Positions 23,191-44,119 of a DNA stretch of 64,000 nucleotides are shown piece after piece. The position numbers and the translations under genes were made by a program. The stretch's first letter is position 1, and the number at the start of each line of letters is the position of its first letter. The notes under the pieces were generated by a model that saw only the letters and a program-made list of their open reading frames with translations, did not search any database and was not told where the DNA came from. Origin of the DNA: Oscillospiraceae bacterium (GTDB lineage: Bacteria; Bacillota; Clostridia; Oscillospirales; Oscillospiraceae). The stretch is from NCBI GenBank assembly GCA_015068035.1, contig SVLI01000001.1, positions 124,001 to 188,000 of the forward strand, in the 5' to 3' direction.

Positions 23191-23237
23191 GAAAATACGG
23201 AATATTCCCGGCCATGCCGGAAAAACCGAATACCACT

Positions 23238-23397
23238 GATAGCGCTTCACAAAAACTCTGTGACAGTCCGGCAGATATTCTCTGCCGACCCAGCAACGAA
23301 AGCCCAGGCCGACTTTCGCCCTTCGGCGGTGGCCCCTTTCCCGTCTGACAGCTGCCTTGCTTTATCAAACGGTACTGATGGATACCGCGCCTCTATC
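23238..23397 (-). ncRNA. Lysine riboswitch (L-box) aptamer
   Basis: Read on the minus strand, the conserved L-box blocks occur in order: GATAG-AGGCGCGG (P1 and loop-E region), CAGTA, GGGGCCACCGCCGAAGGG, CTGGGTCGGCAGAGAA and GGACTGTCA. P1 closes with CTATC (plus-strand GATAG 23238-23242 against CTATC 23393-23397), about 160 nt as expected for the class. A promoter lies just upstream and a T-run terminator between it and the ABC transporter genes. Lysine binding should turn the transporter off. Confidence 0.95.
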
Positions 23398-23418
23398 CAA
23401 GCGATTCAATTTTTCCGT

Positions 23419-28184: not shown

Positions 28185-28228
28185 GGTGAAACCTCCTTGT
28201 TATCAAGCGGATTTTCAGTTCTGCAACT

Positions 28229-28257
28229 ACTGTAGCACAGGACAGATTTGCCGTCAA
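28229..28257 (-). promoter_or_regulatory. Promoter of SDR gene
   Basis: Minus strand TTGACG, 17-base spacer, TACAGT. The spacer contains AAATCTGTC, also present at the divergent promoter. Confidence 0.65.
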
Positions 28258-28289
28258 CCAAAAGCGCGGTGCAGAAGGACGCTTTGCTC

Positions 28290-28318
28290 TTGAAATCTGT
28301 CGACGCTTTTGGTACAAT
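28290..28318 (+). promoter_or_regulatory. Promoter of UroD-like gene, with inverted repeats
   Basis: TTGAAA (28290-28295), 17-base spacer, TACAAT (28313-28318). Nested inverted repeats: ACAGATTT 28242 with AAATCTGT 28293, and CCAAAAGCG 28258 with CGCTTTTGG 28304. Confidence 0.65.
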
Positions 28319-28357
28319 GTCTGCGGAAAATACACTTACAGATTGGAGTGCATACAT

Positions 28358-29407
28358 ATGTTAAGCGCGAAAGAAAATTTCTTTCAGGCCGCAAAGGGTC
28401 TGAATCCCGACCGCTATGTCAACCAGTACGAGGCGCTGCGCCTGACTCTCCACCCCGGAATGTTCCATAACAACTCCCCGAAGCGCGGACAGGAAAACAT
28501 TGTCAACGCCTGGGGCGTCACCAACAGCTTCCCCGCGAATGCGCCCGGCGCTTTCCCCGTGCACACGCCGGACAAGATCGTCATTAAGGATATCGAGCAT
28601 TGGCGCGACTATGTCCACGCCCCGTCCCTGGATGTCGTCACGGACGAGGAATGGGCCATGATCCGCGGCATTCTGGACAACGTGGACGATGATCTCGCTT
28701 ACCGCACCAACTTCGTCGCCCCCGGCATCTTTGAGCAGTGCCACCACCTGGGCGAGATTGCCACCACTCTGATGAACCTGACGCTGTATCCGGACGAGAT
28801 GCACGATCTCATCAAGTACATCACGGATTATGAGCTGCAGCTGGCGGAGCTGATCTGCAAAAACCTCCAGCCCAACGCCATCTTCCATCATGACGACTGG
28901 GGCAGCCGCACCAGCACCTTCATGAGCCCCGCCATGTTTGAGGATTTCTTTGTGGACGCCTATAAGGCCGTCTATGGCTATTACAAGTCCCACGGCGTTG
29001 AGCTCATCGTCCACCACAGCGACAGCTACGGTGCAACCCTCGTTCCCTCCATGATCGAGATGGGCATTGACGTCTGGCAGGGCTGCATGAGCTCCAATGA
29101 CCTGCCGGCACTCTCGAAGAAGTATTGCGGCCAGATCGCCTTCATGGGCGGTTTCGACGGCGCGGACTTCGACTTTGACGGCTGGAATCCGGAAGAGACG
29201 AAGGCAAAGGTCTTCGCGCTGCTCGACGCCTGCACCCCCAAGGCCTTCATCCCCTGCATCGCGCAGGGCGGCCCCGGCAGCATTTACGACGGTGTGTACG
29301 ACTGCATCAGCGATGCCATCGACGAATACAACGCCACCCACTTTGGCATCAACCGCGACGAGATCCGCCGCAGCCCGACGCAGTACGAGAAAAACGGCTA
29401 CATGTAA
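28358..29407 (+). CDS. Uroporphyrinogen decarboxylase-family protein
   Basis: 349 residues, TIM-barrel of the UroD/methylcobamide:CoM methyltransferase superfamily: FVAPGIFEQCHHLGEIATTLMNL, PNAIFHHDDWGSRTSTFMSPAMFEDFF, GVELIVHHSDSYGATLVPSMIEMGIDVWQG and IAFMGGFDGADFDFD. It is not a haem enzyme by context. The position that is HxC in zinc-dependent MtaA methyltransferases is HHSD here (His about 219), so methyl transfer by that mechanism is doubtful. ATG 28358 follows TTGGAG. Divergent from the SDR gene; an FAD oxidoreductase gene follows. Confidence 0.85.
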   Translation: MLSAKENFFQAAKGLNPDRYVNQYEALRLTLHPGMFHNNSPKRGQENIVNAWGVTNSFPANAPGAFPVHTPDKIVIKDIEHWRDYVHAPSLDVVTDEEWAMIRGILDNVDDDLAYRTNFVAPGIFEQCHHLGEIATTLMNLTLYPDEMHDLIKYITDYELQLAELICKNLQPNAIFHHDDWGSRTSTFMSPAMFEDFFVDAYKAVYGYYKSHGVELIVHHSDSYGATLVPSMIEMGIDVWQGCMSSNDLPALSKKYCGQIAFMGGFDGADFDFDGWNPEETKAKVFALLDACTPKAFIPCIAQGGPGSIYDGVYDCISDAIDEYNATHFGINRDEIRRSPTQYEKNGYM

Positions 29408-42761: not shown

Positions 42762-42789
42762 TTGTTTTTTTTCGTTCGTATGCTATAAT
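42762..42789 (+). promoter_or_regulatory. Promoter of the CobW/His-rich operon
   Basis: TTGTTT (42762-42767), 16-base spacer, TATAAT (42784-42789). Confidence 0.65.
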
Positions 42790-42822: not shown

Positions 42823-43425
42823 ATGAAAATCTTACTGCTGGGCGGCTTTCTCGGCTCCGGCAAAACCAGTGTTTTGCTGCCGCTGGCAAAATACATGACC
42901 GAACACAGCACATACACGGGCACGCGCGTGGCAATCATTGAAAATGAGATCGGCGACGTGAGCATCGACGGCATCACCCTGCGCAACGCGGGCCTCTCCG
43001 TGCAGGAACTGTTCTCCGGCTGCATCTGCTGCACCATCGGCACCGAGCTGATCGAGGGACTCAAGCGTCTGGAAAAGGACGCCAACCCCGAATGGGTCAT
43101 CATCGAGGCAACGGGTGTTGCCTGCCCCGGCGCTGTGGCGGAAACGATCATGGAGTTCATCCCGGAAATGGAAGAAATCCGCACCGCTGTTCTCTGTGAT
43201 GCGGAGCGGCTTCACCGTCTGCTGCGCGCCATCACGGTGATTGCGCCCCAGCAGGTGAAGGATGCCCAGGTGCTGCTGCTCAACAAGATTGATCTGGTGG
43301 ACGAGGAGCGCCTCGTGCAGACCGAGCAGATCCTGCGCGAATTCAACACCGAAGCGCCCATCTATCGCATCTGCGCGAAAGAGGGCATTGACGACGCGGT
43401 GCTTGCCGCGATCATAGGAGGCTAA
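42823..43425 (+). CDS. CobW/HypB/UreG-family metallochaperone GTPase, short form
   Basis: 200 residues. Walker A GGFLGSGKTS (7-16), metal-binding GCICC (Cys 67, 69, 70; the COG0523 CxCC motif), ENEIGDVSIDG and the guanine motif LLNKIDLVDE. The ~100-residue CobW C-terminal domain and any His-rich segment are missing, but a protein rich in His is encoded 4 bases downstream. Members use GTP to insert Zn, Ni or Co. AGGAAG precedes the ATG. Confidence 0.9.
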   Translation: MKILLLGGFLGSGKTSVLLPLAKYMTEHSTYTGTRVAIIENEIGDVSIDGITLRNAGLSVQELFSGCICCTIGTELIEGLKRLEKDANPEWVIIEATGVACPGAVAETIMEFIPEMEEIRTAVLCDAERLHRLLRAITVIAPQQVKDAQVLLLNKIDLVDEERLVQTEQILREFNTEAPIYRICAKEGIDDAVLAAIIGG

Positions 43426-43429
43426 GAAA

Positions 43430-44071
43430 ATGCACGAGCATGAGCATTGCCACGACGAGAACTGCAGCTGCCACGAGCACGAGCATCATCACCACGAACA
43501 CCATCACGACGAGCATTGCCACGATGAGAACTGCTCCTGCCACGAGCATGAGCATCACCACCACGGACACCATCACGACGAGCACTGCCACGATGAAAAC
43601 TGCTCCTGCCACGAGCACGAGCATCATCACCACGAACACCATCACGACGAGCATTGCCACGATGAGAACTGCTCCTGCCATGAGCATGAGCATCATCATC
43701 ACGAGGCGGGCTGCACCTGCGAGGAATGCGCGACCTCGGCTTTCCGCTTCACGCGCGTGGAAGGCGCGACCGCCGCGGCGGCACACTTCCGCATGGCCGG
43801 TGAGCAGGACGCAATCGTTTCTGAGGTTTCTTCCCGCGTCCAGGCCCTGTGCGGGGATATTGACGCGCTCGGCGGCTTCGTCGGCCACGTCAAGGGCGCT
43901 GTGCAAAACGAAGGCGATCTGACCACCTTCTCCTGCACCGGCGGCGCCGTCACACTCGCAACCAAGGCGGCCGAGGGCTGCCAGATCGATCTGGTCGCCA
44001 TCGTCGTCGGCCTTGGGGACGAGGATCTGGAAAAGGCCATTCGGGGCCGTTTCCCGGAGATCGGCGCTTAA
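43430..44071 (+). CDS. His-rich metal-binding protein
   Basis: 213 residues. Residues 1-~93 are four tandem copies of a 23-residue unit, DEHCHDENCSCHEHEHHHHE plus HHH, giving over 40 His and a dozen Cys: a high-capacity Zn/Ni/Co site. Then CTCEECATSAF and a ~110-residue soluble alpha/beta domain (FRFTRVEGATAAAAHF... to RGRFPEIGA) that I do not recognise; it may replace the missing C-terminal domain of the GTPase. Coupled to the GTPase gene by a 4-base gap; a terminator follows. Confidence 0.88.
   Translation: MHEHEHCHDENCSCHEHEHHHHEHHHDEHCHDENCSCHEHEHHHHGHHHDEHCHDENCSCHEHEHHHHEHHHDEHCHDENCSCHEHEHHHHEAGCTCEECATSAFRFTRVEGATAAAAHFRMAGEQDAIVSEVSSRVQALCGDIDALGGFVGHVKGAVQNEGDLTTFSCTGGAVTLATKAAEGCQIDLVAIVVGLGDEDLEKAIRGRFPEIGA
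43439..43705 (+). repeat. 69-bp tandem repeat encoding the His-rich units
   Basis: About four copies of a 69-bp unit (23 codons) with near-identical DNA. Such an array can expand or contract by slippage or recombination without frame loss. Confidence 0.9.
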
Positions 44072-44086
44072 TAAGTTCCAACACAC

Positions 44087-44119
44087 AAAAAGGGCGGATG
44101 CAGCTGCATCCGCCCTTTT
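44087..44119. terminator. Bidirectional terminator
   Basis: AAAAGGGCGGATGCAG followed directly by its complement to TTTT, a perfect palindrome; serves the His-rich gene and the convergent PASTA gene. Confidence 0.9.

Follow-up and report, generated by a model that had tools for sequence, protein, structure and literature searches.

We asked how a CobW-type GTPase that stops short of its C-terminal domain and the His-rich protein encoded next to it belong together, and which metalloprotein the two might serve. The locus lies in an Oscillospiraceae bacterium (assembly GCA_015068035.1, contig SVLI01000001.1), within a stretch of 64,000 nucleotides that was analysed as a whole and is called the window hereafter. 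Both open reading frames were located where the original prediction had placed them, on the same strand and 4 bp apart, with the GTPase (200 aa) running from an ATG at 42823 to a stop at 43423-43425, and its partner from an ATG at 43430 to a stop at 44069-44071. A promoter-like site precedes the first gene and a strong terminator-like stem closes the second (Table 1), and the two genes therefore look like one transcription unit. No riboswitch control of the pair was seen; the only riboswitch in the window, of the lysine type (23232-23403, minus strand, 106 bits), was located elsewhere.

Table 1. Features of the two-gene locus, in window coordinates.
Feature	Position	Strand	Basis
Putative promoter, TTGTTT - 16 nt - TATAAT, with preceding TGC (extended -10)	42762..42789	+	Sequence reading; missed by the -35 rule of the promoter scan
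Short COG0523 (CobW-type) G3E GTPase without C-terminal domain	42823..43425	+	Pfam cobW, motifs, tree
GCICC, predicted CxCC metal-binding motif	43018..43032	+	GC-x-CC invariant across a 15-row alignment of split GTPases
Partner protein, 213 aa, His/Cys-rich arm and CobW_C-like domain	43430..44071	+	ORF
His/Cys-rich arm, 97 aa, four 23-aa units	43430..43720	+	Residue counts, tandem repeat
CobW_C-like ferredoxin-type domain (about 107 aa)	43748..44068	+	AlphaFold2, YjiA fold match, profile-profile match
GHVK, the invariant GHxK of the partner family, aligning with the RAKG region of CobW_C	43883..43894	+	38-sequence alignment
Terminator-like stem-loop closing the two-gene unit, 14 pairs, loop of 4	44088..44119	.	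Pairing and loop length

The assignment of the GTPase was straightforward. In the Pfam scan the cobW model spanned nearly all of the protein (E=1.6e-38), and the chain carried the motifs GFLGSGKT, NEIG, GCICC, IIEATG and NKID. The features that define COG0523 were all found, namely the Walker A sequence GFLGSGKT, a Walker B of the hhhExxG type, NKxD, and the GCxCC motif. The CobW_C domain in cis, which is usual though not universal for COG0523, was absent; the chain ended at residue 200, exactly the truncation originally proposed, and a Pfam search of the source genome gave no CobW_C match anywhere.

The coupling of the GTPase gene with the gene for the His-rich protein proved to be real and was conserved in relatives. 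A search with the partner domain gave matches in 17 of 200 genomes of the bacterial family, and a search with the partner alignment gave matches in 15 of 398 genomes of the phylum. A short GTPase lay directly upstream at 35 of 35 loci with a partner-domain match; in the reverse direction, the NF041053 model yielded 13 additional short GTPases, each of which adjoined an ORF for a GHxK partner (13/13). The two-gene form, with the partner directly downstream on the same strand, was present at 48 of 48 loci, of which an automatic count recovered 46, the other two exceeding the ORF length limit of the script and being seen by search. Pairing of the short GTPase with the partner is essentially universal. 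In an unrooted tree of 84 GTPase domains, all fused CobW_C proteins fell into one clade (support 96/92), and the window GTPase was placed inside a clade of 38 split-GTPase rows (support 100/96). A frameshift artefact in a normal COG0523 gene was rejected as the source of the two frames, since all 48 loci had the same form and the split and fused GTPases were separate on the tree.

The genes surrounding the pair were assigned to families using iterated profiles over 46 pair loci, and the families were confirmed on examples. URO-D-family genes were found at 33 loci, corrinoid proteins at 26, pterin methyltransferases at 19, GntR regulators at 15 and DUF1638 at 12, and in many cases the URO-D gene was immediately upstream of the pair on the same strand. 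Corrinoid-dependent methyltransferase genes co-localised with the pair at 36 of the 46 related loci but not at the window locus, where the pair adjoined neither a URO-D nor a corrinoid gene; at 10 of the 46, the stretch examined around the pair contained no URO-D, corrinoid or pterin gene. The HxCG motif, which we take to be the mark of an MtaA-like zinc site, was present in 19 of 37 URO-D neighbours, and those in DUF1638-type clusters were without it. When the 200 family genomes were compared, URO-D was present in all 17 pair-bearing genomes versus 76 of the 183 remaining ones (p=9e-7). At least six URO-D matches occurred in 14 of 17 versus 26 of 183 (p=9e-9; per-genome counts stop at nine). 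These p-values overstate independence because the genomes are related. The two-gene form recurs across anaerobic bacteria beside, or in the same genomes as, methyl-transfer enzymes that are probably zinc-dependent. Zinc dependence has been described for MtaA, with zinc ligands equal to those of MetE, in PMC2770081 and PMC539065. The client metalloprotein had been given as unknown in the original prediction; on the neighbour and co-occurrence data, URO-D-family methyltransferases are now a specific candidate. A link to CODH and nickel was also considered and was dropped, being seen at one locus only.

The source genome itself had 14 URO-D matches, at least five of them with HxCG, and one detected corrinoid protein. 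A URO-D-family ORF without HxCG was located in the window at 28190-29404 (plus strand). On contig C16 of the same genome, five URO-D-family genes stood in tandem (L149:14837-19900), some 9 kb away from the only corrinoid protein detected, and at least four of the five carried MHCCGK.

The same neighbourhoods could place the pair on the corrinoid side of methyl transfer, where it would load, protect or repair the corrinoid cofactor of methyltransferase corrinoid proteins (compare MeaB/MMAA for mutases), or deliver cobalt. The presence of corrinoid proteins and pterin methyltransferases (26/46 and 19/46 loci) is what this explanation would expect, MeaB/MMAA structures were among the fold matches of the GTPase, and COG0523 subfamily 13 was linked with corrinoid-dependent methyltransferases by Haas et al. 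2009 (PMC2770081). We nevertheless consider it unlikely. At Oscillospiraceae-type loci URO-D was the commonest neighbour, mostly without a corrinoid gene, and the CxCC motif argues for a free metal ion. Moreover, corrinoid proteins did not track the pair while URO-D did, because they were widespread across the family (157 of 200 genomes) and were not detected in two of the pair-bearing genomes.

We further examined the His/Cys-rich arm of the partner. The description of about four His/Cys-rich units in a 213-residue protein was borne out: residues 1-97 contained 43 His and 14 Cys, and the units formed a true tandem repeat at 43442-43704 (69 bp or 23 aa, 3.8 copies, 91% matches, TRF score 449). 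The extreme capacity attributed to the arm was not supported, in that the linkers of one-chain COG0523 proteins in the same bacterial family carried 24-48 His and many relatives of the pair were without any arm; the His content of the window arm is ordinary for same-family COG0523 relatives. By simple counting rules, the arm was N-terminal in 13 of 32 parsed partners, C-terminal in six, and at neither end in 13, and what stays constant in the partner is therefore the folded domain rather than the array. The pair was also present in a sister species (same genus; sheep-gut Oscillospiraceae assembly), with a GTPase about 100% identical and a C-terminal domain 96% identical; since its arm was longer, with about five units, the length of the His array changes quickly. 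At another locus, a partner poor in His was immediately followed by a small ORF with the His/Cys-rich stretch HHHEGKDCSCHEKGHTH (L065:8006-8317, minus strand), as though a third gene there encoded the arm. Very similar His/Cys linker units, such as ECDDPNCSCHHHH, were observed in one-chain COG0523 proteins of the bacterial family at L116-L133, which suggests that these arms expand by repeat duplication in split and fused forms alike.

An arm so rich in His could also be the store of a general zinc (or nickel) buffer and homeostasis module of the ZigA/ZagA kind, serving many clients. Among the NCBIfam models, ZigA did give the GTPase its highest score, one that fell far short of the cut-off, and the pair stands alone in the window. 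This explanation is quite improbable, in that the pair was kept in the 13 of 32 parsed partners lacking the arm, the URO-D link was strong and specific, and no Zur-type box was matched in the window with up to three mismatches to one consensus, which may not be that of the host.

Comparison with ordinary COG0523 proteins from the same bacterial family clarified how the two chains relate. These proteins read GTPase, His-rich linker and CobW_C in one chain, with similar repeats, and the pair is therefore most likely the usual COG0523 architecture cut just before the linker. If the partner is the His-rich linker plus a CobW_C-like domain, the part missing from the GTPase is encoded next door. The His-rich region was correctly assigned to a separate chain, yet it is not a free His-rich protein, being joined to that domain. 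A linker-free pair (G170), modelled as a read-through product with TGA read as Trp, gave two confident domains (pLDDT 86.6) and showed no YjiA-like two-domain docking; the list of its matches was taken up by GTPase-only structures, and the absence of YjiA from the matches listed proves nothing. A second COG0523-like protein of the source genome is made as one chain (L039:7652-9109, minus strand; contig C7 near 106152), with NCICY replacing GCxCC and PHMK towards the C-terminus. Its gene has a URO-D gene with HxCG nearby (L039:5104-6120), and a similar protein was found near the pair in L037. The relation between the partner domain and the C-terminus of this second protein was not significant.

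The identity of the partner's C-terminal domain was addressed by profile and fold. Calling it unrecognised was justified at the level of simple family searches, as the Pfam and NCBIfam scans gave the partner no accepted family and no CobW_C (PF07683) match above cut-off; profile and fold make a diverged CobW_C domain its most likely identity. The G, H and K of GHxK were the only invariant positions, in 38 of 38 aligned partners. When these 38 partners were compared with 19 CobW_C domains by hhalign, the score was 27.0 (E 2.9e-4) with GHxK placed on RAKG, versus 11.9 for the reversed profile and 17.4 for the best of 200 column shuffles; a narrower partner profile (A1) gave no significant match to CobW_C. 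The AlphaFold2 model adopted a beta-alpha-beta-beta-beta-alpha fold (pLDDT 78), which VIA-align matched to the C-terminal domain of YjiA (residues 174-317) with Z 6.9 over 94 residues at 18% identity. Fold support is only moderate, because unrelated ferredoxin-like folds rivalled YjiA in Z (8.2 for a de novo design and 6.9 for alkyldihydroxyacetonephosphate synthase). Foldseek used alone on the model was uninformative, and a sequence search of the domain against solved structures gave nothing convincing. Profile similarity and shared fold together provide moderate to good evidence for the relationship with CobW_C. Ferredoxin-like folds are common, and with unrelated ones scoring as well and the narrower profile weak, the domain might instead be some other adaptor of that fold, recruited by a short UreG/HypB-like GTPase and only convergently like the fused proteins; this is very unlikely, as the wider profile was clearly above shuffles and in the right register, YjiA gave the longest alignment and the highest identity among the matches listed, and the two genes follow each other as the domains do in the fused proteins, with the His-linker placed alike.

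Taken together, we consider the pair to be one COG0523-type metallochaperone divided over two genes, most likely supplying Zn(II) to MtaA-type URO-D methyltransferases, with a probability of about 0.6. In the mechanism that we infer, the two proteins would interact physically and deliver their metal to URO-D clients. The GTPase subunit would bind the metal, most likely Zn(II), at CxCC in its GTP-bound state. The CobW_C-like domain with its GHxK motif would rest against the GTPase and contact the client, the His/Cys-rich arm would gather and buffer metal, and the ion would pass into the client once GTP is hydrolysed. The clients would most likely be MtaA-type URO-D-family methyltransferases, which have the HxCG...C zinc site and move methyl groups from corrinoid proteins. 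Binding of Zn via CxCC in the GTP state has been reported for YjiA and YeiR, both of which, by calculation, favour Zn inside cells (PMC7895991). More tentatively, such pairs may form a widespread two-subunit COG0523 subfamily, in which the GHxK subunit could dock specifically on its clients, the URO-D-type zinc methyltransferases, and hand metal over to them, the His and Lys of GHxK could help to transfer metal or to sense GTP, and the His arm could have been gained and lost independently because it is carried on an interchangeable subunit.

To our knowledge, most COG0523 proteins have no known client, and the present subfamily, with its strict two-gene arrangement, points to one enzyme family. 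The split form lets the GTPase, the His arm and the C-terminal domain be examined separately, and a likely identity is given to an unannotated domain that adjoins many methyltransferase clusters in anaerobes, among them gut bacteria.

Several known systems resemble the pair. Within the accessible text of open-licence papers we found no mention of the two-gene form or of the partner domain. COG0523 subfamily 13, as it appears in the accessible portion of PMC2770081, likewise co-localises with corrinoid-dependent methyltransferase genes, as relatives of the pair do; it is described there without a split protein, a partner or a GHxK domain, and the window copy lies outside such a cluster. The CobW-related selenoprotein NF041053 is a stand-alone CobW-type GTPase of about 195 aa (PMC13188914), which the window GTPase matched over nearly its full length with 71.9 bits, below the 180-bit cut-off; unlike the selenoprotein gene, the window gene has no in-frame stop, and no match exceeded the curated cut-off among the 398 phylum genomes. 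UreG and HypB are likewise small G3E GTPases that work with separate metal-binding partners, but their clients and partners are different, and the window GTPase has the CxCC of COG0523 and matches HypB weakly. The two-domain COG0523/CobW_C GTPases (YjiA, YeiR, ZigA and CobW) share with the pair the GTPase motifs, the CxCC, the placement of the His-linker and a C-terminal ferredoxin-like domain, whereas the window system is split over two genes and its partner domain is beyond Pfam detection, with GHxK in place of RxKG.
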